DNA from: Deltaproteobacteria bacterium
GTDB taxonomy: Bacteria; Desulfobacterota_D; UBA1144; Nemesobacterales; Nemesobacteraceae
Direction: 5' to 3'
Length of the DNA: 41,104 nucleotides
Assembly: GCA_029262295.1 (NCBI GenBank)
Contig: JAJCZR010000053.1
Span: forward strand, 1-41,104
In this document: positions 10,047 to 32,766 of the stretch, piece by piece
Numbering within the stretch: the stretch's first letter is position 1
How the letters are laid out: each line of letters starts with the position of its first letter
Translations under genes and position numbers: made by a program
Notes under the pieces: model-generated
Seen by the model: only the letters and a program-made list of their open reading frames with translations
The model's database searches: none
What the model was told of the DNA's origin: nothing

Positions 10047-10829
10047 ATGTTAGCTCTAAACTCATTATCAACTTTATTTCCAGCTAGCAGTTTTGCTATA
10101 TCAAATGTTAACGATATTAAAGCTGTGGGTTTTGCAGAAAGACTTTCTTCAAAGGCTGACATTGATACTGAGTTTACAAACTCTGATGGCAAGCAGTTAA
10201 GACTTTCAGAATATTTTGATGGTAAACTTCCCGTAATAATTAACCTTGTTTACTTTAATTGCCCGAGGGTTTGCACATTTGGCACTGACGGTGTGCTCGA
10301 AGCAATAAATGAGCTGGAAGCACTCGATCTTACCAATGACTATAAAGTATTAACAATAAGCTTTAACAATAAAGAAACCCCTGAAGTATCATCAAAAAAA
10401 TCCAAAAGATACCTTAGCAGCCTAAGAGACGGGCTCTCAGGCAAAAACAGTTGGGAGTTTCTCACCGGAACTGAAGAAAATATAATAAGGTTAACAAACT
10501 CACTTGGATTTAAGTTTAAAAAAGACGGAAAAGAATTTGCCCATCCATCAGGGATCATTATTCTTACTCCCAATGGAACAATTTCCCGTTATCTACACGG
10601 AATTCAGTATAGCAAGAAAGATTTAAGGCTTGCACTGATTGAAGCTTCAGAGGGCAAAATTGGTAAATCATCACTCTTTAACTCAGTACTGTTATTTTGT
10701 TATAAGTTTGATCCGATTGGAAAAAGGTACGCCCTTCATGCACTTAATGTTTTAAAAGTTGGCGGATTTATCACGCTTGCTGTGCTTGTAGGTTTTCTTT
10801 CAATCATGTGGAAAAGAAACAAAGTTTGA
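10047..10829 (+). CDS. SCO1/SenC family copper chaperone
   Basis: A thioredoxin-fold SCO protein, which delivers copper to the CuA site of cytochrome oxidase subunit II. The copper ligands are visible as CPRVC (CxxxC) near residue 73 and a His in FAHPSG near residue 165. A C-terminal membrane helix occupies about 235-255, ending in basic residues. The uninterrupted frame starts at ATG 10047 but has no ribosome binding site and only half a signal peptide. The natural start is probably ATG 10018, one base out of frame across a T-run, which would give about 270 residues. It lies 33 bases before coxB, consistent with a role in CuA assembly. Confidence 0.9.
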   Translation: MLALNSLSTLFPASSFAISNVNDIKAVGFAERLSSKADIDTEFTNSDGKQLRLSEYFDGKLPVIINLVYFNCPRVCTFGTDGVLEAINELEALDLTNDYKVLTISFNNKETPEVSSKKSKRYLSSLRDGLSGKNSWEFLTGTEENIIRLTNSLGFKFKKDGKEFAHPSGIIILTPNGTISRYLHGIQYSKKDLRLALIEASEGKIGKSSLFNSVLLFCYKFDPIGKRYALHALNVLKVGGFITLAVLVGFLSIMWKRNKV

Positions 10830-10862
10830 TTATTAATCATTGGTGGAGGTTATGTATTTCAA

Positions 10863-11810
10863 ATGACCAGTTGGATACCTGAATCAGCATCTAATTTAGC
10901 TAGTAATGTAGATAATATAACGCTTTTTGTAACGGTGTTATCAGTATTTTTCTGTGTATTGATCTCCTTTTTTCTAATATACTATTCAATAAAATATAGA
11001 AGAAAAAGTGAAAATCAGGAAACTGCTTACATTACAGGAAATGAACTTATAGAGATTATCTGGACAGTTATTCCCAGCATTTTGCTTATGGTTATATTTG
11101 CATGGGGATATATCGCTTTCAGGGAGCTCAAACACCCACCCGCAGACGCACTTGAGATCAATGTTATCGCAAAACAATGGCTTTGGCAGTTTGAATATTT
11201 TAATGGAAAGAAAAGCATTAATGAGATGTATGTTCAAAAGGGCCGACCCGTAAGGCTCATAATGAGATCGGATGATGTTATTCACAGCTTTTTTGTACCA
11301 CAATTCAGGGTTAAACAGGATGTCTTACCTGTCAATTATTCCCAGCTTTGGTTTACACCTACAAAAACAGGCACATACGATATTTACTGCACTGAATACT
11401 GTGGTGCAGGTCACTCCAAAATGCTTGGAAAAGTAAATGTTTTAAGCCCCGAGGCCTATGCAAGATGGGAAAGAGCAGATGAGTTTGGTGGAGATGCTGT
11501 AGCAGGTGGATCAGACCTACCACCGGCAGAGAGAGGCGAGAACCTTTACTCGCAAAGAGGATGTAATGCCTGCCATAGTCTTGATGGAGCAGATGGTGTG
11601 GGGCCAACATTTAAAGGACTATTCGGAAGAGAAGAAAAACTTGTTGACGGCTCAGTTGTAATAGCAGACGAAAATTATATTAAAGAATCTATTTATGTGC
11701 CGCAAGCAAAAATGGTTGCAGGCTATGCACCTGTGATGCCTGCTTTCAAAGGTATCCTTTCAGATGATGAAGTTACAGCAATTATTGAGTTTTTAAAAAC
11801 TCAGAAGTAA
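10863..11810 (+). CDS. coxB: Cytochrome c oxidase subunit II with fused cytochrome c (caa3 type)
   Basis: A 315-residue subunit with two membrane helices (about 18-42 and 62-86) and a periplasmic cupredoxin domain. The binuclear CuA site is complete: His141, Cys176, Glu178, Cys180, His184 and Met187. A C-terminal cytochrome c domain has CNACH (Cys234, Cys237, His238) and a probable Met ligand in VMPAF near residue 292. This fusion defines caa3 oxidases, which accept electrons directly at the attached heme c. The Shine-Dalgarno GGAGG (10845-10849) lies 13 bases from the ATG, rather far. A four-codon ATG..TGA minicistron (10852-10866) overlaps the start. Confidence 0.96.
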   Translation: MTSWIPESASNLASNVDNITLFVTVLSVFFCVLISFFLIYYSIKYRRKSENQETAYITGNELIEIIWTVIPSILLMVIFAWGYIAFRELKHPPADALEINVIAKQWLWQFEYFNGKKSINEMYVQKGRPVRLIMRSDDVIHSFFVPQFRVKQDVLPVNYSQLWFTPTKTGTYDIYCTEYCGAGHSKMLGKVNVLSPEAYARWERADEFGGDAVAGGSDLPPAERGENLYSQRGCNACHSLDGADGVGPTFKGLFGREEKLVDGSVVIADENYIKESIYVPQAKMVAGYAPVMPAFKGILSDDEVTAIIEFLKTQK

Positions 11811-11830
11811 GTAATTAGGAGGAAGGAAAT

Positions 11831-13432
11831 ATGGCAAACGGTATTGCCGCAGATTCAACTTATGAATCATATTTAGCCAAAAAAGGTTTTACTGCCTGGG
11901 CTTTAACAACGGATCATAAAAGAATTGGGATAATGTATCTCATTACTATCTCTTTTTTCTTCTTACTTGCAGGGGTAACAGCCCTTCTTATGAGATATGA
12001 GCTGCTTACCCCAGAGCTTGATTTCTTCAGTACCACGACACAATACAATGTGGCTTTTACGCTTCACGGATCACTTATGGTCTTTTTCTTTATTGTGCCA
12101 GGGATTGCGGCAAGCCTCGGAAATTTCCTTATTCCACTTATGATTGGGGCAAGGGATGTTGCCTTTCCAAGACTCAATTTGCTAAGCTACTGGGTTTATC
12201 TTGTCGGTACAGTAATTCTAATGACAGCCCTGGCTCAACCTGCAGACACGGGATGGACATTTTATACTCCCTACAGTGTTGAAACCGGAACAAATGTAAT
12301 ACTTATAACCCTTGGGGTTTTTGTACTCGGATTTTCTTCTATTCTGACGGGTATGAACTTCATTGTAACAGTTCATAAACTTCGTGCCCCGGGTATGACA
12401 TGGAACAGATTGCCACTATTTATCTGGGCATCTTACGCAACTGCAATTCTTCAGCTTCTTGCAACACCAGTAGTAGGAATAACACTTCTGCTTCTAATAA
12501 TGGAAAAATCCCTCGACATAGGATTTTTTGATCCTGCAAAAGGTGGAGATCCAATATTATTTCAAAATTTCTTTTGGTTTTACTCTCACCCTGCTGTTTA
12601 TATCATGGTAATACCCGCTTTTGGGATTATTTCTGAGATTATTCCCGTGTTTGCACGAAAACCAATATTTGGATATAGGGCAATTGCATATTCAAGTTTT
12701 GCAATCGCAATAATAAGCTTTTTTGTATGGCTTCACCATATGTTTGTGAGCGGTATATCCGAAACTGCAGCTGCTATTTTCTCGTTTCTAACTATGCTTG
12801 TCGCTATACCAACAGCAATAAAGGTGTTTAACTGGCTTGCAACTTTATACAAAGGTTCAATAGAGTTTCACTCATCTATGCTCTACGCACTTTCGTTTAT
12901 CTTCTTATTCACCATCGGAGGGCTTACAGGGGTATTTCTCGGCGCTCTTGCCGTGGACGTGCATCTGCACGACACATATTTTGTTGTAGCGCACATGCAC
13001 TACGTAATGATTGGTGGAACAGTAATGGGATTTTTCGGGGCGCTACACTTTTGGTATCCAAAGTGGTTTGGTAAAACATTTAATGAACTCACAGCTAAAG
13101 CATCATGGTTTTTAGTGTTTGTTGGTTTTAATGTAACTTTCTTTCCACAGTTTTTTATGGGTTATCAGGGAATGCCACGAAGGTATGCCACCTATCCTGA
13201 ACAGTTTCAATCGGCTCATGTTTTATCAACATATGGCTCATGGATACTTGGATTAGGGATATTTATCATGACAGTTAATTTGATAGCTGGTATTTTTAGC
13301 AGAAAGGTGCCTGAAGGCAATCCTTACAAATCATTATCACTTGAGTGGCAAATGCCTTCTCCGCCACCACATAATAATTTTGAGGATATACCAATAGTTA
13401 CAGATTGGACTTATGCATATGGTAAAAAATAA
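11831..13432 (+). CDS. coxA: Cytochrome c oxidase subunit I (A2-type heme-copper oxidase)
   Basis: A 533-residue catalytic subunit with about 12 membrane helices, which reduces O2 to water at the heme a3/CuB centre and pumps protons. Metal ligands: His79 and His390 (low-spin heme), His388 (heme a3), and His253, His302 and His303 (CuB). Tyr257 is positioned for the His-Tyr cross-link. The motif is YSHPAVY rather than GHPEVY, so the D-channel glutamate is absent and the Tyr/Ser pair of the A2 subfamily replaces it. A GGAGGAAGG Shine-Dalgarno precedes the ATG. Confidence 0.97.
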
Positions 13433-13455
13433 ACTTTGGAGGCATTCAAAAGAAA

Positions 13456-14079
13456 ATGAGCACAACAACAGCAGATCACACTGAAGATCATGCACACGCA
13501 CACGGACATGGATTAGGTGAAGCAGTTACTCATGATGCTGCAAAGTTTGGGATGTGGCTTTTCCTTGGAACTGAAATTCTTCTATTCGGTGGACTATTTG
13601 CAGCATATGCACTCTTCAGGGCAAAGTATCCTGATTTATTTGTGGAGTATCACAAAAACCTTGATCTTGAAAAAGGGGTTTTTAATACCTTTGTGCTGCT
13701 TTTTAGCAGTTTTACAATGGCACTTGCTGTGCTTTTTGCCCAGAGAAAAAAACAACTTTATACTACAATTTTTCTTGCAATAACCTTTGTTTGTGGAGCA
13801 ATTTTTGCGATTGTAAAATACTTTGAATACGCCCATAAATTTGAAGACCATATTTACCCAAGTAAAAATATATTTTATGCACTTTACTACATGACGACAG
13901 GCCTTCACATGATTCACGTATTCATAGGAATGATAATCATCCTTGCCCTTCTTGGAATGAATATGAAGGGGAAATTTGTGAAGGGCAGATACACACCGGT
14001 TGAAGTTGGCGGGCTTTACTGGCACCTTGTCGACCTTATCTGGATATATCTTTTTCCATTAATGTATCTTATAGGCTAA
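13456..14079 (+). CDS. coxC: Cytochrome c oxidase subunit III
   Basis: A 207-residue protein with about five membrane helices, the short bacterial form lacking the first two helices of mitochondrial COX3. The motif KFGMWLFLGTEILLFGG after the N-terminus and GLHMIHVFIG near residue 150 are family hallmarks. The N-terminal 26 residues are rich in His and Asp/Glu (HTEDHAHAHGHG), a possible metal-binding tail. It is 23 bases after coxA, with a GGAGG Shine-Dalgarno. Confidence 0.95.
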   Translation: MSTTTADHTEDHAHAHGHGLGEAVTHDAAKFGMWLFLGTEILLFGGLFAAYALFRAKYPDLFVEYHKNLDLEKGVFNTFVLLFSSFTMALAVLFAQRKKQLYTTIFLAITFVCGAIFAIVKYFEYAHKFEDHIYPSKNIFYALYYMTTGLHMIHVFIGMIIILALLGMNMKGKFVKGRYTPVEVGGLYWHLVDLIWIYLFPLMYLIG

Positions 14080-14091
14080 TAGGAGAATAAA

Positions 14092-14409
14092 ATGAGCATT
14101 GAAAACCGCGATCACATTGAGGAACATCACACAAATATCTGGTCATACGTGTTTGTTTTACTGGCTTTATTCACCCTTACTGCTTTCACTGTATTAACAG
14201 CAATAAAAGTGGATATAGGTAGTCTGAATATAGTTCTTGCAATGATTATAGCCTCTGTAAAAGCATCTATAGTTGCCTTGTTTTTTATGCACCTTAAATT
14301 TGAAGACAAACTCACATGGCTATATGCACTTTATCCTTTGTTTTTACTGTTTCTTTTAATCTTTTTTACACTTATGGAGACCTTCACAAGGGTTCCGGTT
14401 TTGAAATAG
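14092..14409 (+). CDS. Cytochrome c oxidase subunit IV family protein
   Basis: A 105-residue protein with a short hydrophilic His-containing N-terminus and three membrane helices (about 17-38, 44-66, 75-98). It matches the prokaryotic small subunit IV (COX4_pro/CyoD-like), including the ALFFMHLKFE segment near residue 63. This subunit stabilises the oxidase core. It sits 12 bases after coxC and 6 bases before ctaA. Confidence 0.85.
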   Translation: MSIENRDHIEEHHTNIWSYVFVLLALFTLTAFTVLTAIKVDIGSLNIVLAMIIASVKASIVALFFMHLKFEDKLTWLYALYPLFLLFLLIFFTLMETFTRVPVLK

Positions 14410-14415
14410 TATCAA

Positions 14416-15270
14416 ATGCTTCCAAAAGCTACACTTGGATTATTATTCCTTCTTTTAATATGGGGAAATATGGTAGCTGGCCTGGGTGCCGGGCTTGCCT
14501 GCCCCGACTGGCCCCTATGTTACGGGAAATTTTTCCCACAAATGAGATGGGATATTTTTATGGAACACACCCACAGGGTAATCGGTGCTGTGTTTTCAAT
14601 CCTGTTTTTCATTTACGCATATAAAACCTATAAAAGATACTCAGGCAACTATAAATTAATTCCAGTAATAACAGTAATACTTCTGATCATCCAGATTGTT
14701 CTTGGAGGAATAGTAGTATTAAAAAAACTTCCGGTCGACCTGACAACTTATCACTTTGCAAACGCTATGGTCATTTTTTGCCTTGTTCTTTACGTAGTAT
14801 ATTTTGACGGTGAAAAAAGAAACCCCAAGTTAAAGTTTAATGGCGCATCAGGAATTTTCTTTGGATTATCTTTTCTGGTATTAATTCAACTTGTTTTAGG
14901 TGCTTATGTCAGGCACTCAAAAGCAGGGCTTGCCTGCCCTGATTTTCCAACTTGCCTCGGATTCATCATACCACCTGATTTATCTGGAATTGTGCTTACA
15001 CATTTTAGCCACAGAGTGATGGCCTATATAATTTCACTTATTTTTATTGTTCTTTTTATAATTTCTAAACTGACAACAACATTCAAAGATGCACGTAAAA
15101 ATATTGACTTGGTTTTGCTTTGTGTCATAACACAGATTGTTCTTGGAATGTGGGTTGTTTACTCACGGCTTACTTTTTATGTTACCGCCCTTCACCTCAG
15201 TCTTGCACTTATAATCCTTTCAATTACTTTACTAACCTGGTTTAAATATATAGATAAACGCTATATCTAA
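14416..15270 (+). CDS. ctaA: Heme A synthase
   Basis: A 284-residue COX15/CtaA protein with eight membrane helices arranged as two four-helix halves. It oxidises the heme O methyl group to the formyl group of heme A. Both halves carry the extracellular Cys pair (Cys29/Cys35 and Cys174/Cys180 in repeated GLACPD motifs). Candidate heme ligands are His51 or 53, His113, His196 or 199 and His260. Its stop codon overlaps the ctaB start by one base (TAATG). Confidence 0.93.
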   Translation: MLPKATLGLLFLLLIWGNMVAGLGAGLACPDWPLCYGKFFPQMRWDIFMEHTHRVIGAVFSILFFIYAYKTYKRYSGNYKLIPVITVILLIIQIVLGGIVVLKKLPVDLTTYHFANAMVIFCLVLYVVYFDGEKRNPKLKFNGASGIFFGLSFLVLIQLVLGAYVRHSKAGLACPDFPTCLGFIIPPDLSGIVLTHFSHRVMAYIISLIFIVLFIISKLTTTFKDARKNIDLVLLCVITQIVLGMWVVYSRLTFYVTALHLSLALIILSITLLTWFKYIDKRYI

Positions 15271-16181
15271 TGGAGAAAAAAAATAAAAATTCTGCCGGCA
15301 AAGTAGTTGTTTCTGCCATACTTCTTTCAAAGCCGGGGATTATTGTAAGCGTTGCTTTCACTGGCTTTGCCGGAATGGTTGTTGCAGAGAGAGGAATCCC
15401 TTCCCTATCTGTGATAGCGCTTGGAATTATCTCACTTCTTCTCAGTGCAGCTGGCTCCGCGATACTCAACAATGTTTTTGATAAAAAAATAGATAAAGAG
15501 ATGAAACGTCTCAATAAGAGGGTCGAAGCCCTCGAGACTCTTGGGGATAAGAACGCAGTGATCTTATCTTCAATTATAATTATTATCTCTCTTGTAATCT
15601 CACTTTTCTTTTTTAACTATCTAAATACCACTCTAATTGTTGCAGCAATTTTTAGCTATACCGTTCTATATACACTGTTTTTAAAAAGAAGTTCACCGTT
15701 TGGTACTATTCTTGGCGGAATCCCCGGGGCCCTTCCAGTAATTATTGGTTATACGTTTGTAAATAGCTACATTGGACTTGATGGTATAGTTTTATTCACC
15801 TTTATGATGCTCTGGCAACCGCCACATTTTTGGGCACTTGCCCAAAAGTATAAAAAGGATTACGAACAGGCAAAAATACCCGTCTTACCAGTTGTTTTCA
15901 GTAGCGAATACACAAATATACTAATCCTTATTTATACTCTTTCCCTTCTGCCCCTAACATTAATTCTTTGGTTTATTGGACTAAATTCAGTCTATTTTGC
16001 TTTTTTTGCAGTACTTGCAGGTCTATACTTTGATTATGTAGTAATAAAAAGTGTTTACCGGAATGCAGGATATGGAAAAGCTTTTGCAATTTCCATTCTT
16101 TATATGCTTGCTATAATGCTATTTATTATTATTGATATATCAGTTTCCTCATTTACACCAGTCAGAGGAATTATTAACTAG
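15270..16181 (+). CDS. ctaB: Protoheme IX farnesyltransferase (heme O synthase)
   Basis: A 303-residue UbiA-superfamily prenyltransferase that converts heme B to heme O, the substrate of CtaA. The first Asp-rich motif N67-x3-D71-x3-D75 and the second conserved region DYEQAKIPVLP near 210 are present, within about nine membrane helices. The start is inside the ctaA stop. It is the last gene of the oxidase operon, and its TAG stop shares the tetranucleotide CTAG with the stop of the convergent glgA. Confidence 0.95.
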   Translation: MEKKNKNSAGKVVVSAILLSKPGIIVSVAFTGFAGMVVAERGIPSLSVIALGIISLLLSAAGSAILNNVFDKKIDKEMKRLNKRVEALETLGDKNAVILSSIIIIISLVISLFFFNYLNTTLIVAAIFSYTVLYTLFLKRSSPFGTILGGIPGALPVIIGYTFVNSYIGLDGIVLFTFMMLWQPPHFWALAQKYKKDYEQAKIPVLPVVFSSEYTNILILIYTLSLLPLTLILWFIGLNSVYFAFFAVLAGLYFDYVVIKSVYRNAGYGKAFAISILYMLAIMLFIIIDISVSSFTPVRGIIN

Positions 16182-23512: not shown

Positions 23513-25966
23513 TTGAGTCAGGTTGTAGTAGAGAACAAACTATCCAAGATTATTAATTCGATTATTTATCATATCAATTACACAATTGGGAAAAGAATGA
23601 ATAAAGCATCAAGAGAAGATATATCCCGTGCTCTTTCTTTAACAGTTAAAGATATGGTCCAAGACAGGTTAAAATCTTCTCAGGAAGTCTACAAAGAAAA
23701 TGACTCAAAAAAAATCTACTATATATCTATTGAATTTCTTGTAGGAGCTTCTCTTGAAAACAATCTTTTTAATTTACACATTTATGATGAGTGCGAAGAG
23801 GCACTTTCCAGATTAGGGTTTAATCTTCAAGATATAATTGATGTGGATGTTGAACCTGCGCTTGGTACAGGCGGACTCGGGAGGCTTGCAGCATGCTTTC
23901 TTGACTCTATGGCAACCCTTGGAATCCCCGGTTTTGGATATGGAATTAACTATGAGTTTGGTTCTTTAAAACAGGAAATAAAAAACGGATATCAAACCGA
24001 AAAACCTGATGATTGGAACAGGGATATATATCCTTTTTTCATCGAAAGGCCCGATAATAAAATTGAAGTTCCGGTTTATGGCCATGTTGAAGTACTAAAA
24101 GATATAGATGAAGGATATAGATATAGATGGGAAAATCAAAGATTTGTAACAGGGATACCATATGACCTGCCTATCGTTGGATACGGTGGAAAAACAGTTA
24201 ATTATCTTAGGCTTTACACTGCAAGAGCTTCAAACAAACTTGATTTTGAAAAATTTTATTACGGGAATTTTGCCCAGGCTACAAAAGATAAAACTTTTTC
24301 GGAAAATATTTCAAAAATAATTTACCCTTCCGATTCAAACACCAAAGGAAGGGAATTAAGGCTTCTGCAGGAATATTTTCTTGTTGCATGTTCATTAAAA
24401 GATATTATCGACCAGTATAAAAAAGACCATAATACATTTGAGGATTTCTCATCAAAAGTGGCTATTCAGATTAATGATACTCATCCGGCCCTTGCAATTG
24501 CAGAGCTTATGAGAATTTTGACTGATGAGATAGGAATGAGCTGGGAAAGGGCCTGGGAAACTACTACCAATACTTTTAGTTACACAAATCATACACTGCT
24601 TCCCGAAGCGCTTGAAAAATGGTCTGTCTCACTTCTAGAAAAAGTAGTCCCCTTGCACATGGAAATAATATATAAGATCAATGCCAATTTTCTCAAAAAA
24701 GTAGAGGCAAAGTGGCCCGGGGACTTTGAAAAACTCAGATCGATGTCATTAATAGAAGAAAATGAAACAAAAAACCTTAGAATGACAAATCTTTCTATTG
24801 TGGGTAGCCATTCAGTGAATGGGGTTGCAGCTGTACATTCAGAGCTTGTGAAAACAAACCTTGTGCCGAATTTTTATGAACTTTGGCCTGAAAAGTTTAA
24901 CAATAAAACCAATGGAATAACCCAAAGGCGCTGGCTTTTAAAGTCCAATTCAGAGCTTTCACACCTTATTACATCCAAGATAGGTGATAGCTGGATAACA
25001 AATCTTTATAAACTAAAAGAGCTCGAAAACTACTGTGAGGATAATAATTTTCAATCTAATTTTCTTGAGATTAAATATAAAAACAAACAAAAACTTGCCC
25101 AAACAATCTATAACCTCACCGAAATATCAGTAGATCCCGACTCAATATTCGATATACAGGTAAAAAGAATTCACGAATATAAACGCCAGCTCTTAAATGC
25201 AATGAATATTATTCATACTTATCTAAGAATCATAGAAGATGGAGATATTCTTGAGAACCCCCGCACTTTTATTTTTGCAGGAAAAAGTGCCCCCGGATAT
25301 TTTGCAGCAAAACAGATTATTAAGCTTATAAATAATCTTTCAAAAATAATTAATAGTGACAAGAGGGTTAAAAACAGCCTTAAAGTTGTTTTTATACCGA
25401 ATTACAGAGTCAAACTTGCAGAAATAATTTTTCCCGCAGCAGATGTAAGTGAGCAAATATCAACTGCTGGAAAAGAGGCTTCCGGCACAGGGAACATGAA
25501 GTTTGCCCTTAACGGAGCTCTGACAGTCGGCACACTTGACGGTGCTAATATAGAGATAATGGAAGAAGTTGGAGAAGAAAATATTTATATATTCGGAAAG
25601 AAAGTGAAAGAGATAAAGAAAATGCAGACTGAAGGATCTTATAATCCGAAAGAATATTATAATAAAAATGAGAATATAAAAAGGATAATGGACTCATTTA
25701 ATTCAGATATTTTTTGCAATGGTGAACCAGGAATATTTAAATGGATTTTTGAATCCATAATGGACTATGGCGATGTATATTTTCATCTTGCAGATATACA
25801 AAGCTATATCGATACACAAAAAAAGATAGAAAAAGATTTTTGTAACAGATCAGACTGGGCTAAAAAAGCAATACTCAATACTGCCAGGTCAGGAAAATTT
25901 TCAAGTGATAGGACTATCTCTGAGTATGCAAAAGATATATGGAATGTTAAAAGTGTTATAAACTAA
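23513..25966 (+). CDS. glgP: Glycogen/starch phosphorylase
   Basis: An 817-residue GT35 phosphorylase that releases glucose-1-phosphate from glycogen ends. The pyridoxal-phosphate lysine is Lys663 in ASGTGNMKFALNG. Other hallmarks are KRIHEYKRQLLNA near 560 and an N-terminal ALGTGGLGRLAACF near 120. The start is TTG at 23513, with GAGG at 23503-23506 six bases upstream. It is divergent from the glgB operon, and its TAA stop overlaps the stop of the convergent CBM48 gene. Confidence 0.96.
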   Translation: MSQVVVENKLSKIINSIIYHINYTIGKRMNKASREDISRALSLTVKDMVQDRLKSSQEVYKENDSKKIYYISIEFLVGASLENNLFNLHIYDECEEALSRLGFNLQDIIDVDVEPALGTGGLGRLAACFLDSMATLGIPGFGYGINYEFGSLKQEIKNGYQTEKPDDWNRDIYPFFIERPDNKIEVPVYGHVEVLKDIDEGYRYRWENQRFVTGIPYDLPIVGYGGKTVNYLRLYTARASNKLDFEKFYYGNFAQATKDKTFSENISKIIYPSDSNTKGRELRLLQEYFLVACSLKDIIDQYKKDHNTFEDFSSKVAIQINDTHPALAIAELMRILTDEIGMSWERAWETTTNTFSYTNHTLLPEALEKWSVSLLEKVVPLHMEIIYKINANFLKKVEAKWPGDFEKLRSMSLIEENETKNLRMTNLSIVGSHSVNGVAAVHSELVKTNLVPNFYELWPEKFNNKTNGITQRRWLLKSNSELSHLITSKIGDSWITNLYKLKELENYCEDNNFQSNFLEIKYKNKQKLAQTIYNLTEISVDPDSIFDIQVKRIHEYKRQLLNAMNIIHTYLRIIEDGDILENPRTFIFAGKSAPGYFAAKQIIKLINNLSKIINSDKRVKNSLKVVFIPNYRVKLAEIIFPAADVSEQISTAGKEASGTGNMKFALNGALTVGTLDGANIEIMEEVGEENIYIFGKKVKEIKKMQTEGSYNPKEYYNKNENIKRIMDSFNSDIFCNGEPGIFKWIFESIMDYGDVYFHLADIQSYIDTQKKIEKDFCNRSDWAKKAILNTARSGKFSSDRTISEYAKDIWNVKSVIN

Positions 25967-26295
25967 ACAACAACAACCGAGTCATCACCACCAAAACTGT
26001 TTGGAACATACTTATCTGCATTCCAGTCGTTTTCCCAATGTTCTCCATCTATCAGATATTTAAACTTATATTCCTTACCAGTGCCAAGATTCATATCAAG
26101 TTTAAATTCCCCACTTTTAAGTTTTTTCATTGGAGTTGATCTTATGTTCCAGTCATTAAAGTCTCCAACAATATTAACTTTTTTCCCGCTATTAACTGCC
26201 GCTTTTGGTAAACGAAATGTTACCTTGCACTTTTTACCTGATTTTAAATATTTTTTTTTAATTTTTCCGACAGGTTTTCTTGTTTTTTTCTCCAT
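25963..26295 (-). CDS. Free-standing CBM48 glycogen-binding protein
   Basis: A 110-residue protein with a lysine-rich N-terminal tail (residues 1-24) followed by a single CBM48 / AMPK-beta-like glycogen-binding domain. The domain has VNIVGDFNDWN near residue 43, YKFKYLIDG near 77, and an N-S-F-G near the C-terminus. There is no catalytic domain and no signal peptide, so it is probably cytoplasmic. Its gene ends inside the glgP stop codon, in the glycogen cluster. It may target a partner to glycogen or act on branching; that is inference. Confidence 0.85.
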   Translation of the reverse strand: MEKKTRKPVGKIKKKYLKSGKKCKVTFRLPKAAVNSGKKVNIVGDFNDWNIRSTPMKKLKSGEFKLDMNLGTGKEYKFKYLIDGEHWENDWNADKYVPNSFGGDDSVVVV

Positions 26296-26479
26296 TTTTT
26301 CCTCCCCATCAAAGTGATATAAATAATAGAGAATACTACTATTTAGATAATTTCAAGAAAAATTTTTTTTTAGATATCAGAAACTAGATCAAATTGTAGT
26401 TATAATTTAAATTGTTTATAGGAATTTGCGTTATCAATTTGATATTCGCCCACTAATTTTGATTTAAACATAAACAATT

Positions 26480-27478
26480 ATGCATACAAAATCTTTATCA
26501 TTATTATTTCTTTTGCTTATAGTTTCATGTTCTCAAAATGAAAATTCTTTGTACCAAAGAGCATTTTACACCATGGGGTCAAGTCTTGAAATAATGCTCT
26601 ACACAGAGAATGAAGAACTTTTCTACAAAATCACGGATGAATCTATTGAGAGGGCAAATAAGATTGATCATCTTTTTAGCAATTACAAAGATGACAGTGT
26701 TCTTGCAAAAGTAAATAAAGATGCTGGTAAAACTCCTATTACTGTCCCTGCTGAGTTTATTGATCTAGCACAAGCTTCAATTAGTTACTCTCAAAAAACA
26801 GGTGGCACATTTGATATATCAGTTGGCAATATTTTTGAGTTATGGAAGTTAAGTGGCAAAAAAAAATCACTCCCTTCTGAAAACGAAATTAATTTAGCTT
26901 TACAATGCACCGGATATAAAAATATAAAGCTGGATGGTGACAAAATATCTTTTATAAAAAATTGCATTGAGCTTGATTTTGGGGCAATTGGAAAGGGATA
27001 TGTGGTTGATGAGATTATCAAGATAGCTAAAAGTTATGGGGTAAAAAATGGTCTTATAAATTTTGGTGGTAATATTTATGCTTTAGGTTCTCCATACGAC
27101 TCCGATGCCTGGGATGTTGGGATTAATGATCCAGCCACCCCTGGTAGCATTATCAGTGATCTATCATTAAAAAACTATGGAACTGCCACATCAGGAGATT
27201 ATGAAAAATTCTTTGAGATAAACGGCAAAAAATACTCTCACATTATCGATACACAAACAGGCTTGCCAGTTAAAGATATTTCTTCGGTCACGGTTATAGC
27301 AAAAACTGCAACAGATGCAGATGTCTATTCAACTGCTTTTTCTGTAATGGGTGTTGAAAAGACAAAAGAGTTTATTCAAAAGAATGAAGGAATTGCAGTA
27401 ATGTTTATATCAAAAGAAAAAGATAAGACCAGCATATACAAATCTGACCTTTTTAAAGAACTTGAAGTATCTAATTAA
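26480..27478 (+). CDS. apbE: FAD:protein FMN transferase ApbE (lipoprotein)
   Basis: A 332-residue ApbE. The N-terminus is a lipoprotein signal peptide with lipobox IVSC, giving a lipidated Cys17. Family motifs: MGSSLEIML near residue 32, the ELDFGAIGKGYVVD segment near 170, NFGGNIYALG near 194, HIIDTQTG near 254 and DVYSTAFSVMG near 278 (metal site). ApbE uses FAD to attach FMN covalently to Thr/Ser of exported proteins. A candidate target is encoded 0.5 kb away on the other strand. No clear Shine-Dalgarno precedes the ATG. Confidence 0.95.
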   Translation: MHTKSLSLLFLLLIVSCSQNENSLYQRAFYTMGSSLEIMLYTENEELFYKITDESIERANKIDHLFSNYKDDSVLAKVNKDAGKTPITVPAEFIDLAQASISYSQKTGGTFDISVGNIFELWKLSGKKKSLPSENEINLALQCTGYKNIKLDGDKISFIKNCIELDFGAIGKGYVVDEIIKIAKSYGVKNGLINFGGNIYALGSPYDSDAWDVGINDPATPGSIISDLSLKNYGTATSGDYEKFFEINGKKYSHIIDTQTGLPVKDISSVTVIAKTATDADVYSTAFSVMGVEKTKEFIQKNEGIAVMFISKEKDKTSIYKSDLFKELEVSN

Positions 27479-27487
27479 AAATAGTGA

Positions 27488-27979
27488 TTAACTTTCTTTT
27501 TTTGTTTTTTCAAACAAGTATTTACAAACAATTGCTATCAAGAGCAAGAGTGAAATTTGAAATATCAAAAATGAAGATATTTTAAGATAAGCAAATCCGG
27601 GGTGCAAAAATCTTATAAGCCAGCCGCTTATTATATCAAAGAAAGCAGAAACATAAGAGATTACAATAATTAGAAGCTTGTTAACCGACTTAATATTGGT
27701 GAAGAGAATTAAGTGATTTAATGTCACAAGAATTATTGCAATGGAAAAAAAATGAAAATGAGCCTCTTCAAGCAAACCTAAATAACTTTTTGGAGGTCTG
27801 AAAGTTTCTTCTGAGCCCCTGTAATATTCAACAACACTCTCGTAGCTTAACCCAACTTTTAAATATAAAAGAAGATTGGTCAGCCAGAGAAAAACAAAGA
27901 AAATGACCGTAAATAAAATTATTAGTTTTAATAGATCATTCTTTCTTATGTCAGATGATATAAAGAATCTCAATTTCAA
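27488..27979 (-). CDS. Four-helix membrane protein with intramembrane histidines
   Basis: I do not recognise a named family. The 163-residue protein has four predicted membrane helices (about 18-40, 75-95, 101-121, 132-154). A hydrophilic periplasmic-type loop after helix 1 contains YYRGSEETFRPPKS. His74 and His76 lie at the start of helix 2, His89 within it, and His126 between helices 3 and 4. Such a pattern could bind heme or quinone, but this is inference. The start is TTG at 27979, directly abutting the TAA stop of the FMN-binding gene, with AAGGA just upstream, so translation is probably coupled. It may pass electrons to the FMN protein. Confidence 0.7.
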   Translation of the reverse strand: MKLRFFISSDIRKNDLLKLIILFTVIFFVFLWLTNLLLYLKVGLSYESVVEYYRGSEETFRPPKSYLGLLEEAHFHFFSIAIILVTLNHLILFTNIKSVNKLLIIVISYVSAFFDIISGWLIRFLHPGFAYLKISSFLIFQISLLLLIAIVCKYLFEKTKKES

Positions 27980-28537
27980 TTAATCCTTTTTAGTATAGTT
28001 CTCACTACTTTTTACAGCTATATCATAAATTGCGAGCACTTTCCTTGTAGCCTCTGCAAAAGAGTGAGAAGTGATTGTTGCACCTGTAATATTAGGCACA
28101 TCTTTTCCAACTACAAGTGAGTCTGTTAAATCCTTATCAAGAAAAAGGTTAACCCATTTTCCACCCTGCATATAATCCTGCGGTTCAAAAAAAGCAAGAA
28201 TCTCTGCTTTCTTTAATTTTCCATTGGGTTCAATCACAAAGAGAACTGTCTCAGTGGAAGTTCGAAGTTTATGTGTATCAATAACTGCATAACCTATCTC
28301 GTCTTCACCTTTTTTTGCTACATAAAAGATATACAGTTTTGAATTTATCCTGGTTTTTGCAAGCTGCTCAGCTTCTGTTATCTGATCTGTTGATAAAAAT
28401 ATTTGACGTTTTTCTATCTCTGTTGCATTGGGAAAAGAAAGCTCAAGTGCTTTGTTCTTTGTCTGAAACACTTTTGCGATTGCAAAGTTTGATAAAAACA
28501 AAATAGATATTGTAGCAATTGTAATAGTTTTAAACAC
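27980..28537 (-). CDS. Secreted FMN-binding domain protein, likely ApbE substrate
   Basis: A 185-residue exported protein. The signal peptide ends at about AIA (residues 19-21). An FMN_bind domain follows, with the flavinylation motif TGAT (Thr151-Gly-Ala-Thr154) preceded by Asp146. Thr154 is the expected site of covalent FMN attachment. The same fold occurs in NqrC/RnfG and in flavin-based extracellular electron-transfer proteins. The gene lies between the porin (12 bases upstream) and the four-helix protein (no gap), and apbE is close by, so maturation and function are probably linked. Confidence 0.88.
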   Translation of the reverse strand: MFKTITIATISILFLSNFAIAKVFQTKNKALELSFPNATEIEKRQIFLSTDQITEAEQLAKTRINSKLYIFYVAKKGEDEIGYAVIDTHKLRTSTETVLFVIEPNGKLKKAEILAFFEPQDYMQGGKWVNLFLDKDLTDSLVVGKDVPNITGATITSHSFAEATRKVLAIYDIAVKSSENYTKKD

Positions 28538-28549
28538 TTCAACTACTCC

Positions 28550-29983
28550 CTAGTAAACGTAACCCAGACCAAAGTTCACCTGTGTTGTTGCACTCTCAGC
28601 AGAGTTATCAATCCGCTGCACTTCACCCTTTACAACTACATTTGGAATTGGTTTATAATTCAGGCCAAAAGTTGTTTCCTGCCTCTCATTTGCATCATTT
28701 GCAAAAAATCCAGATGGAACATCATGTTGAGTGTCATACCACTCATACCTTGCAAATACATCTAAATTCTGCAGATACTTACTTGATAAATTCAGTTCAT
28801 TAAAAATATTATAAGCGCCAACAATATACCAACCCAGCTGATTTTCTCCAACGGAACTATCACCATCAAAACCTAGGTTAGCATTTATAAGCTCAACATC
28901 GTCAATAAATGTGTATGCGATCAGTGTTCTAAGATCAAAGCCCCTCCACTGAAGTTGAAGATCGGCTTCATATATCTGGAAAAAGGCATCAATGTTATCA
29001 CCATCAAAAGAGGAAGCAACATTATCTACATTTTCATTCTGGCCTGTATTTCCCAAGAATGTTGAGAAACCAACTTTTATACCAGGATATGGATCATATT
29101 CGGCCCTACCCACAAATGCCACATCATTAAACCTTGATCTATTGCCTCTGGTTCTAAGCCCTCTGTTACTTGATGCTGTAAATCCTCTTGAATCAAAACT
29201 GTTCATTAAATATGCCCTGTAGCCAAGAGAACCTGCAGTTCCAAGATCAATATCTCCAAATATACCAACCCCTCCTTCTCTAGAGGTTGAGGGAATTATA
29301 AATCTTTCAACAGATGGTCTAAAAACTCCCCAAAATGTGGTCGGCTCATGCACTTCGTTTACAATCCCGAGGGGTGATAGAAGTATTCCTCCCCTTAAGT
29401 TCAACTCATCATAGATAAGGAAATCAAGTGCTGCAAACTCAACGGACACTGAACCATCCCTGTCATCAAGATTGTCTTCAGTGGTTGCATGCTCAAATTC
29501 TATTTCTGAGTTAAAAAATATTCGATCGTTGAATTTATACCCTGTATAAAAAACCACTCTTTGTGCATCAAGAATATTATCTGCATCCTCTTCTATCTGC
29601 CCTATAAATATTTCTCCGTAACCTCCAAAGGAAATACCCGTCTTTTCTTTTTGATATATCTGCGAAGCACCTGGGGCAAGTCCGTATTTAGACTCATAAG
29701 TTCTTTCATCACCCACTTCTGAAGATTTAAGATTATCAATCTCTTCAGCAAGGATATCTATCTTCTCTTCAACCTTTGTTTCACTTCTTTTTTCCATTTT
29801 TATCTCTTTAAGCTCTTCAGTAACTGTCTGAAGAGTCTCAGTTAAAGCTTTTAGCTGTTTTTCTAGTTCTTCAATTCTTTTATCAGAACTGGGTTGAGCA
29901 AAAACACTGAAGGGATAAAGAATCATAATCGCAACAAAAATAGAAGTGAATATGATGCCTTTTCTTAAATAAAAACTGTACAT
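28550..29983 (-). CDS. Outer-membrane porin with N-terminal coiled coil
   Basis: A 477-residue protein. Its signal peptide is cleaved after about Ala29 (VFA-Q). A coiled coil follows at 34-88, rich in Glu, Lys and Leu heptads, then a long beta-barrel region of alternating strands. It ends in GLGYVY, so the last residue is aromatic as in many outer-membrane barrels. It resembles the phosphate-selective OprO/OprP-like porin group, though the substrate cannot be told. It heads a minus-strand unit with the FMN-binding and four-helix proteins. GGAGG precedes the ATG. Confidence 0.8.
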   Translation of the reverse strand: MYSFYLRKGIIFTSIFVAIMILYPFSVFAQPSSDKRIEELEKQLKALTETLQTVTEELKEIKMEKRSETKVEEKIDILAEEIDNLKSSEVGDERTYESKYGLAPGASQIYQKEKTGISFGGYGEIFIGQIEEDADNILDAQRVVFYTGYKFNDRIFFNSEIEFEHATTEDNLDDRDGSVSVEFAALDFLIYDELNLRGGILLSPLGIVNEVHEPTTFWGVFRPSVERFIIPSTSREGGVGIFGDIDLGTAGSLGYRAYLMNSFDSRGFTASSNRGLRTRGNRSRFNDVAFVGRAEYDPYPGIKVGFSTFLGNTGQNENVDNVASSFDGDNIDAFFQIYEADLQLQWRGFDLRTLIAYTFIDDVELINANLGFDGDSSVGENQLGWYIVGAYNIFNELNLSSKYLQNLDVFARYEWYDTQHDVPSGFFANDANERQETTFGLNYKPIPNVVVKGEVQRIDNSAESATTQVNFGLGYVY

Positions 29984-30008
29984 TTAAAGCCTCCAAAAAA
30001 GTTTGATA

Positions 30009-30103
30009 ATTATAGGAAATAATGTAAAACCTGTATCTGTTTTATATCATGGATACAAATTATCCAGAATAGTGATGTTAGCATTATGGACTTTCTTTGT
30101 CAA
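30009..30103 (-). promoter_or_regulatory. Candidate promoters of the porin operon
   Basis: A perfect TATAAT on the minus strand (complement of 30009-30014) lies 26 bases before the porin ATG but has only a weak -35. Further up, TTGACA (complement of 30098-30103), 17 bases, then TAACAT (complement of 30075-30080). Either or both could be used. Confidence 0.35.
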
Positions 30104-30240
30104 GAATAAAAAAACAAATAATTACGGGTGTTTAGATGGTAATATTTTGCAAATGGAAATAACTTTCAACTGGTAAAAAGAACCTCAACTTTTAATCTAT
30201 AGAGTCAATCTTAACAAAAATCATTATAAGAAATTTATTA

Positions 30241-30269
30241 TTGACAACAAAGGTCTAGAATGTTTTAAT
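30241..30269 (+). promoter_or_regulatory. Promoter of the cytochrome c-FTR1 gene
   Basis: TTGACA (30241-30246), a 17-base spacer, then TTTAAT (30264-30269): 6/6 and 5/6 matches. The ATG is 36 bases downstream, so the leader would be about 30 bases. Confidence 0.55.
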
Positions 30270-30305
30270 ACACGCTCAAACACTTCAATTTCAGATAATT
30301 GCTTT

Positions 30306-32474
30306 ATGAGAAAAAAGAGCGCTGTTTTATCATTAATCACAATCTTTTCTATTCTTTTATTTTCTTCTTATGCATTAGCATCCGTTGAAATCCAGCGAAT
30401 TGTTTCGCTAGTGGATTATATAGGTGGTGATTATAAAAATGCTGTAAATAATGGTGAAATAATTAATAGAGAAGAATATCAGGAGATGCTCGATTTTTCC
30501 TCGGCAATCCTGGATTTATCAAATTCTGTGGATATTGATGAAAGTTTCAAAAGTAGATTTAAAACATTAAAAGAAAAAATTGATTCAAAAGAAGATACCA
30601 CATCTGTAAATGAGCTTGCAACAGACCTAAAAAAAGATTTAATTGCAGCTTTTGGCCTCAAGCCTTATCCAAAGAAAACACCAGACCTCTCAGCAGGAAA
30701 GCTCCTTTATGAAAACAACTGTTCAACCTGCCATGGAATATCTGGCAGGGGAGACGGTGTATTATCAGAAAATCTCGAACCACCACCCACAGACTTCACA
30801 GAAGAAGGAACAAAGCAAATACTATCACCTTTTAAAATCTACAATACCGCTACCTTTGGAATTGAAGGAACGGCAATGCCATCTTTTAAGACTTTCGGTG
30901 AAGATGAAAAATGGGATGTTTCCTTTTATGTTGCATCGCTTGGCTACAGAGGTAGAGGCGGCAACAATACTACTTCAGGTGAAAGCAGTGGTGGTGGACT
31001 AAGCGGGAATAAGATTCCGAACAATTTAAAAGATTTTAAAAACCTTGCAACACTTAGTAATGATGAGTTGAATTCACAACTAAGCCAGGTCGTAAATTCA
31101 CCTGAGGAAGCAGTAGCCTTTTTAAGAACAAATTATTTACAGAAAGGCCCTGGTAATGAAACTCAAAGCCCTATTGAATTTACAAAATCAAAACTTGGGA
31201 ATGCCTTAAAATTATATAAGTCAGGCAATAAAAGCGGGGCACTAAAAGAATCAATTGATGCATATCTTGATGGTTTTGAAAGTGTGGAACCAGATATTTC
31301 CGCTAAAGACAGTTCACTTGTGCTGGATATGGAAAAAAAGTTTTCAGCTTTCAGATCGGGGATTAAGTCTGAAAAGCCTGTTGATAAGATTGAAAACCTG
31401 TATTCAGTGATAATAGCGGATCTTGATAAGGCCGATGCTATTCTATCAAGCGACTCTTCTTTAAGCTCTTACGTAACTTTTTTAAGCTCTTTTTCAATTA
31501 TTGTAAGAGAAGCTCTTGAAGCAGTGTTAATAATTGCCGCAATTATTGCATTTCTTTATGCCTCTGGTTCAAAACACGCGGTCAAGTATATACATTTTGG
31601 ATGGATTGCAGCTGTATTTGCGGGTTTTATCACATGGTTTGTGGCAACCAATGTTATAAAGATATCAGGTGCCCAAAGAGAGGTGATAGAAGGCGTCACA
31701 TCACTCATAGCAGCGGCTGTGCTTTTTTATGTAAGTTACTGGCTTATATCAAAAATTGAGGTCAACAAGTGGAAAGATTACTTAAAAGATAAACTCAACA
31801 CTGCATTAAATAAAAAAAGCATTTTTGCATTAATGTCAGTCTCATTTCTTGCAGTTTACAGAGAGGCATTCGAAACAGTTCTTTTTTATCAGGCACTTAT
31901 TTATCAGTCAGAATCAACAATACCTGAGGTAATTTGGGGCCTTCTGGTTGGAATTGTTTTTATCTCACTTATTATGATTATAGTTCATAAACTGGCTTTA
32001 AAAATACCACTTAAATACTTTTTTTCTTTCACAAGTTTATTTTTATATTTTCTATGCTTTATCCTGGTTGGAAAAGGGGTTAAGGAACTTCAAAGCGCCG
32101 GCTACATTTCTGCTACAGCTTTCGACATGCTGCCCTACATTGATTTTCTTGGCATCTATCCAACTTATGAAACAGCTATTCCTCAGTTTGTAATAATGAT
32201 TGCATTTGTATTTGCATTTTGCTGGATAGCCTATGTGACAAATGTGAAAGAAAGAAATGAAATAACCGAAAGTGTCTCAAAAATATCAAATGAGATAAAA
32301 ACTATCCAGATGTCATTCGATCACATAAAGGGCCATATAATAGAGTGGAAAAAGTGTGAACACATTGATCTTGAGGCTGAAGAGCTTGATAGCCAGATAC
32401 ATCAGGCCTCAAACCATTTTGATCAATTAAAACAAAAACTTGATAAATTCAACCTCACTGTTGGCGATTCCTGA
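30306..32474 (+). CDS. Cytochrome c-FTR1 iron permease fusion
   Basis: A 722-residue fusion. After a signal peptide (to about Ala25) there is a helical region (30-120). A cytochrome c domain follows, with CSTCH (Cys139, Cys142, His143) and a likely axial Met191. A linker region is next, then an FTR1 permease domain (about 390-650) of seven helices. Iron-binding RExxE motifs are at 401-405 (REALE) and 519-523 (REAFE), with a third at 458-462. A charged coiled tail ends it. FTR1 proteins import iron coupled to oxidation; the fused heme could serve that redox step. It is divergent from the porin and FMN genes. Confidence 0.9.
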   Translation: MRKKSAVLSLITIFSILLFSSYALASVEIQRIVSLVDYIGGDYKNAVNNGEIINREEYQEMLDFSSAILDLSNSVDIDESFKSRFKTLKEKIDSKEDTTSVNELATDLKKDLIAAFGLKPYPKKTPDLSAGKLLYENNCSTCHGISGRGDGVLSENLEPPPTDFTEEGTKQILSPFKIYNTATFGIEGTAMPSFKTFGEDEKWDVSFYVASLGYRGRGGNNTTSGESSGGGLSGNKIPNNLKDFKNLATLSNDELNSQLSQVVNSPEEAVAFLRTNYLQKGPGNETQSPIEFTKSKLGNALKLYKSGNKSGALKESIDAYLDGFESVEPDISAKDSSLVLDMEKKFSAFRSGIKSEKPVDKIENLYSVIIADLDKADAILSSDSSLSSYVTFLSSFSIIVREALEAVLIIAAIIAFLYASGSKHAVKYIHFGWIAAVFAGFITWFVATNVIKISGAQREVIEGVTSLIAAAVLFYVSYWLISKIEVNKWKDYLKDKLNTALNKKSIFALMSVSFLAVYREAFETVLFYQALIYQSESTIPEVIWGLLVGIVFISLIMIIVHKLALKIPLKYFFSFTSLFLYFLCFILVGKGVKELQSAGYISATAFDMLPYIDFLGIYPTYETAIPQFVIMIAFVFAFCWIAYVTNVKERNEITESVSKISNEIKTIQMSFDHIKGHIIEWKKCEHIDLEAEELDSQIHQASNHFDQLKQKLDKFNLTVGDS

Positions 32475-32484
32475 TTTTTAGTTG

Positions 32485-32766
32485 CTAGTTGTCTACTCGC
32501 TGAAGTTCTATATACCTGTCTGTATCCTTATCGTACTGCTCTCTTTGGGGAACGCAGTTGTAAACATCCTCATCATTTTCATTCATACATTTCATGTATG
32601 CTTTTTTTGATTTTTTTACATCCTCTCTTGCCTGAGTAAGGTTTTCTTTTCGGCCCGCTTCCTTTAAAGGGCTATTATCATTTATATAGTCTTTACTCTT
32701 TTGTATTGAGCTACAACTCAAAAGAAGTGCTGAGAACAGGGCTAAAATTAATAATCTTGTATACAT
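32485..32766 (-). CDS. Small lipoprotein
   Basis: A 93-residue protein not recognised as a known family. Residues 1-17 form a lipoprotein signal peptide with lipobox LLSC (lipidated Cys18). The mature part is short, charged and mostly helical, with Cys60 and Cys71 that could form a disulfide. It ends 10 bases from the convergent FTR1 gene. A role with the envelope iron module is possible only by proximity. Confidence 0.65.
   Translation of the reverse strand: MYTRLLILALFSALLLSCSSIQKSKDYINDNSPLKEAGRKENLTQAREDVKKSKKAYMKCMNENDEDVYNCVPQREQYDKDTDRYIELQRVDN

Follow-up and report, generated by a model that had tools for sequence, protein, structure and literature searches.

A conserved porin, flavoprotein and membrane-protein operon that looks like an undescribed route of iron reduction for uptake

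About half of the genomes bearing ApbE lacked a characterised electron-transfer system in a 2021 survey (as restated in PMC11334425). Here we examine a locus in which ApbE has genes for a porin, an FMN-binding protein and a small membrane protein without a family name as neighbours, in a 41,104-nucleotide stretch of a deltaproteobacterial genome (contig JAJCZR010000053.1, positions 1 to 41,104; hereafter the window). The operon that we describe is conserved in several uncultured bacterial groups, where it lies close to genes for iron transport or to sites for an iron regulator, and it looks like a means, not described before, of reducing iron for uptake.

An earlier note, made from the sequence of the window, had described four genes in a convergent arrangement, and our reading confirms all of their positions. 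An ApbE gene on the forward strand (26480–27478) meets, with 9 nt from stop to stop, a reverse-strand unit encoding a porin (28550–29983), an FMN-binding protein (27980–28537) and a four-helix membrane protein that we call TM4 (27488–27979). The TGAT flavinylation motif of the FMN-binding protein (residues 151–154; 28076–28087, reverse strand) lies exactly where the note had placed it, with the codon of Thr154 at 28076–28078. That TM4 abuts the FMN-binding gene holds for its longest reading frame (163 aa, TTG at 27979), although the Met conserved in relatives aligns with a second TTG at 27973, a trivial difference; TM4 residue numbers in the invariance counts below run from this conserved start. 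Unmentioned until now was a cytochrome c–FTR1 iron permease gene (30306–32474, forward strand), which is divergent from the porin gene across a gap of 322 bp and belongs to the same neighbourhood.

Judged by its sequence, the ApbE protein (332 aa) is a canonical exported FAD:protein FMN transferase. It matches Pfam ApbE with 275 bits (cut-off 25.6; E = 8e-82), has homologues in the PDB (E = 6e-54), and carries a lipoprotein lipobox that reads LIVSC. The FMN-binding protein (185 aa) passes the Pfam FMN_bind cut-off narrowly (24.6 bits against 22), and its family profile recovers RnfG structures from the PDB (E = 1.9e-8). The protein does not reach the cut-off of the RnfG model TIGR01947 (18.4 bits against 102), and its gene has no Rnf or Nqr neighbours, standing instead beside those for the porin, TM4, FTR1 and ApbE. 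This RnfG-like, secreted flavoprotein is the predicted ApbE substrate: the window genome encodes a single FMN_bind protein, and searches for DUF2271 and DUF3570 found neither there, which makes it the only recognised ApbE substrate of that genome. The acceptor threonine, Thr154, is invariant among the 53 homologues (53/53), and the surrounding motif takes the canonical [ST]GA[ST] form, as TGAT or SGAT, in 37 of them, the remainder reading AGST, SNST, SGST and similar.

Is this arrangement more than chance? The earlier note had beforehand made its case depend on the families occurring together, and they do. Porin and FMN-binding genes stand beside TM4 in the regions of all 20 relatives found by means of TM4 (20/20), a degree of synteny that argues against a chance arrangement. 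Their order, porin, FMN-binding protein, TM4, is nearly constant, with ApbE inserted in one locus (L050). A GTDB-wide contig scan yielded 36 TM4 loci, in Candidatus Dadabacteria, Deltaproteobacteria/Desulfobacterota, Binatia and marine bacteria, and 34 of these have both partner genes; the two exceptions are a locus that reaches the end of its contig (L077) and one from which the genes are absent (L079). The three-gene unit is also present in a second phylum. Flanking genes (metF, ubiE and the like, identified by eye) differ between clades and thus lie outside the unit. Across 58 genomes, with ApbE called at E < 1e-20, TM4 and ApbE are both present in 40 and both absent from 13, with 2 having TM4 only and 3 ApbE only (Fisher p = 1.6e-8, a value that carries no phylogenetic correction). 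The three genes of the unit travel together, but ApbE is not always next to them: it adjoins them in the window's family, in some members of family f5, in families f7 and f8 and in Binatia, and in family f3 it lies elsewhere in the genome.

TM4 itself has no match in Pfam, NCBIfam or the PDB, whether by sequence or by fold. Its AlphaFold2 model (pLDDT 84, pTM 0.74) has helices at residues 13–40, 64–89, 96–122 and 127–154. Twelve residues are invariant in an alignment of 56 sequences (N33, Y51, G53, E69, H72, F73, H74, F76, L85, H87, K99 and W118), and the three histidines among them (56/56 each) all fall on one transmembrane helix, helix 2. By the positive-inside rule, both ends of TM4 should be cytoplasmic, which would put H72 and H74 in the periplasmic part of that helix and H87 at its cytoplasmic end.

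More distant relatives bear on what these histidines might do. In a second phylum, that of a Binatia genome, 15 of 297 genomes have a TM4 match of the module type, and the matches in 8 are weak and of a different type, to longer proteins (227–264 aa where measured). Most of the weak matches that we examined have the same transmembrane segments, together with a CxxCH motif in the periplasmic loop between helices 1 and 2; one (L117) is without it. The membrane part of the CxxCH proteins scores 98.3% against TM4 in hhalign over 100 columns (E = 1.4e-14, a pairwise value), and proteins of this type adjoin c-type cytochromes in L119/L121 and L125, the last within a cluster of molybdo-oxidoreductase and multihaem genes. 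The c-haem branch keeps H72 and H74 and replaces H87 with R, K or A, so a simple path over two haems is not conserved across the TM4 superfamily. The homologues with a monohaem CxxCH insert (L116, L118, L119 and L121–L125) form a group that has no Pfam or NCBIfam name.

The role of membrane electron carrier that had been proposed for TM4 thus gains backing from its homology to membrane-anchored c-type cytochromes and from its three invariant transmembrane histidines; at the level of sequence comparison, the homology supports electron transfer and suggests that one membrane scaffold may be served equally by a haem c domain or by a flavin protein made as a separate chain. TM4 could instead be redox-inactive, an anchor, assembly factor or chaperone for the flavin protein or the porin, with electrons coming from elsewhere. 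Neither a haem nor a flavin domain is detected in it, it has no fold match, and HxH could bind another metal, but the invariant HxH...H on a single transmembrane helix and the kinship with proteins that carry a fused haem c make this unlikely.

The porin (477 aa, Pfam BBP2) is modelled with about 16 strands and an N-terminal, periplasmic coiled coil, at a mean pLDDT of only 70. The model matches OmpC/OmpK36-type porins in Foldseek (E = 2e-11), and the porin profile matches mostly coiled coils among PDB sequences.

A first link to iron comes from the divergent gene. Its product combines an N-terminal cytochrome c domain (Pfam Cytochrom_C, E = 3e-10; CSTCH) with an FTR1 permease domain (E = 4e-26, 92 bits) and has two RExxE motifs, REALE at 401 and REAFE at 519; the architecture is not new, since 'Cytochrome c/FTR1 family iron permease' is already in use as an annotation name (PMC9230427). 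FTR1 adjacency is restricted to part of the clades: a long, divergent cytochrome c–FTR1 gene in the window's family and, separately, a short FTR1 in the marine family f8. At the level of whole genomes, co-occurrence of TM4 and FTR1 is not significant (p = 0.066). Two small proteins were also seen in these surroundings. Next to the FTR1 gene of the window, 32485–32766 encodes a 93-aa lipoprotein with a weak CHCH-like cysteine pattern and no assigned family. In a marine family whose genomes are of 1 Mb, a secreted helical protein (116–137 aa, no family) adjoins the module (L048, L049, L051 and L074–L076); in L051 and L074–L076 its gene separates TM4 from FTR1.

A second link comes from regulatory sites. 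Using one pre-chosen 19-mer consensus, non-redundant upstream regions and a threshold of 15/19 or more, we found Fur boxes in 12 of 48 porin upstream regions against 2 of 464 for other genes of the same loci (p = 9e-12). The porins so preceded belong to families f3 and f5 and to the GC-rich lineages L082, L137 and L139. The window has none, its best match (12–13/19) being no better than shuffles, and its family likewise is without such a box; Fur-family proteins are nevertheless encoded in all genomes of that family. Clades with an adjacent FTR1 are mostly without a Fur box and those with Fur boxes are without an adjacent FTR1, so that the two amount to partly independent links to iron.

The gap between porin and FTR1 genes in the window contains two promoter-like sequences, TTGACA-N17-TAACAT for the porin operon (30075–30103, reverse strand; its TTGACA is conserved in the family alignment) and TTGACA-N17-TTTAAT for the FTR1 gene (30241–30269, forward strand, within a block conserved in the family). 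Just after the −10 element of the former, the family has in place of a Fur box a palindrome of the form GGATAN5TATCC (GGATACAAATTATCC, 30051–30065), a putative operator. No other exact copy exists in the window genome of 2.2 Mb, and the palindrome recurs at the same place in all five of the module-bearing relatives sampled (5/5). Among the copies in the sampled relatives (L141–L154), two others are intergenic, one preceding an imelysin gene (Pfam E = 1e-58; L144, genome G004) and one beside a cytochrome c gene that is followed by a gene for an Rrf2 regulator (E = 6e-32; L148, genome G002), with the remaining copies inside coding genes. A small iron regulon under an Rrf2-type regulator is a possible explanation of these sites.

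The interpretation offered before, a membrane carrier feeding a periplasmic flavin, therefore stands as to the conserved unit and its co-occurrence with ApbE, but it had overlooked the iron link formed by FTR1, the Fur boxes and the GGATAN5TATCC operator. We propose that the unit is an assimilatory iron reductase of the envelope, linked to iron starvation, in which electrons pass from TM4 to the flavin and on to Fe(III), and FTR1 or a different transporter brings the iron in. Thr154 of the periplasmic FMN-binding protein would receive its FMN from ApbE. TM4, probably carrying haem b and perhaps acting as a homodimer, would be fed by the membrane quinol pool and would hand the electrons to the flavin. 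Fe(III), entering probably as small chelates through the dedicated porin, would be the acceptor that the flavin reduces, and the released iron would be imported by the adjacent cytochrome c–FTR1 or, in lineages without one, by an unlinked transporter.

This is our best reading of the combined sequence evidence, namely the conserved unit, the co-occurrence of ApbE and TM4, the sole recognised ApbE substrate, FTR1 adjacency, the Fur boxes, the palindromic operator, and the homology and invariant histidines of TM4, and we give it about an even chance of being right. Against it weigh the loss of H87 in the c-haem branch, the patchy adjacency of FTR1 and its non-significant genome-level association with TM4, the lack of a Fur box in the window, and the degenerate motif (SNST, AGST) of some FMN-binding homologues. 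Furthermore, fungal FTR1 works with the oxidation of Fe(II) rather than the reduction of Fe(III).

That last point invites the reverse flow, since permeation by fungal Fet3–Ftr1 is paired with ferroxidation: the flavin protein, with the cytochrome c domain of FTR1, would accept the electrons that Fe(II) gives up on oxidation, a step coupled to permeation, and TM4 would return them to the membrane pool. The FTR1 protein here does have a cytochrome c domain, and in the window's family flavin and cytochrome partners both lie near FTR1. Many clades, however, have the unit with Fur boxes and without an adjacent FTR1, and the flavinylated iron systems described so far in PMC8238504 are proposed to be reductases; we consider the reverse direction improbable. 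Improbable, too, is a respiratory or detoxifying outlet, in which the flavin protein would reduce some acceptor, organic or inorganic, let in by the porin, and the regulation by iron would be incidental, for although several respiratory systems use FMN_bind proteins (PMC8238504), a general porin suits small solutes and a haem-c homologue of TM4 sits in the L125 cluster, the conserved unit contains no catalytic reductase subunit and is tied to iron by Fur boxes in several clades and by FTR1 in two.

How does the assimilatory reductase compare with known systems? Clusters in which P19 accompanies FTR1 and an FMN-binding gene, for which iron assimilation has been inferred (Meheust et al. 2021, PMC8238504), resemble it in the adjacency of FTR1 permease and FMN_bind genes but are, in that account, mostly Gram-positive; here a porin and TM4 are present, and P19 (PF10634) is absent from the seven proteins spanning 25963 to 32766. 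PepSY-like, MsrQ-like and DUF4405/FezC cytochromes likewise pair a small membrane protein with conserved transmembrane histidines with ApbE and a flavinylated partner, several flavinylation-associated membrane cytochromes are linked to iron, and FezC has been modelled as a haem-holding homodimer (PMC8238504, PMC11334425). TM4 differs in its own invariant pattern (N33, YxG, E69, HFH, H87, K99, W118), and neither it nor its homologues match the Pfam families of PepSY, MsrQ, NapH, DsbD, NqrB/RnfD-like proteins or DUF4405. RnfG and NqrC share the FMN_bind domain and a TGAT-type motif, whereas the protein here has a signal peptide, a separate membrane partner and no Rnf or Nqr genes beside it. Fur-regulated porins of Geobacter and Desulfuromonas, likened here by description, also have Fur boxes before the gene and a proposed role in iron entry, but the passages of PMC545781 devoted to them describe no accompanying FMN-binding protein or TM4.

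We see in the porin–FMN-binding protein–TM4 operon a new variation on the flavinylation systems already known. A search of the open-access literature found no paper describing the gene set, and the portions of PMC8238504 and PMC11334425 that deal with the nearest systems name neither it nor the TM4 family. More tentatively, and at somewhat less than an even chance, TM4 may found a new class of minimal transmembrane electron carriers, paired in the periplasm with a fused haem c as redox partner in one branch and with a separate ApbE-flavinylated protein in the branch of the window; the latter arrangement would give uncultured bacteria an iron-regulated route of reductive uptake that includes a dedicated porin. 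Its membrane component has no name as yet but a conserved set of partners, and the operon comes with a testable role in iron and with candidate operators. It is also a concrete example of one membrane scaffold whose partner is in some proteins a flavin protein and in others a haem c domain, and it may provide a route for iron in bacteria that are known chiefly through environmental genomes.

Several candidate features were set aside. Kinship of TM4 with haem-copper oxidases, suggested by AHFHF and the AHFHY of oxidase helix X, finds 0.4% in hhalign against the CoxA of the window and oxidase matches at E > 6 in Foldseek. H124, considered as a haem ligand, is His in 8 of 56 sequences and Ser in 48 of 56. 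Apparent TM4–ApbE fusions in L081, L082, L085 and L086 are artefacts of a long ApbE reading frame that overlaps TM4 in another frame; in L080, L087 and L097 the two are separate genes.

Elsewhere in the window, a 110-aa stand-alone glycogen-binding (AMPK1_CBM) protein (25963–26295), convergent with glycogen phosphorylase, ends a glycogen gene cluster. Sco, cytochrome oxidase subunits (subunit II with a C-terminal CxxCH) and CtaA/CtaB are encoded in one run (10047–16181), which indicates that this genome encodes an aerobic respiratory chain.
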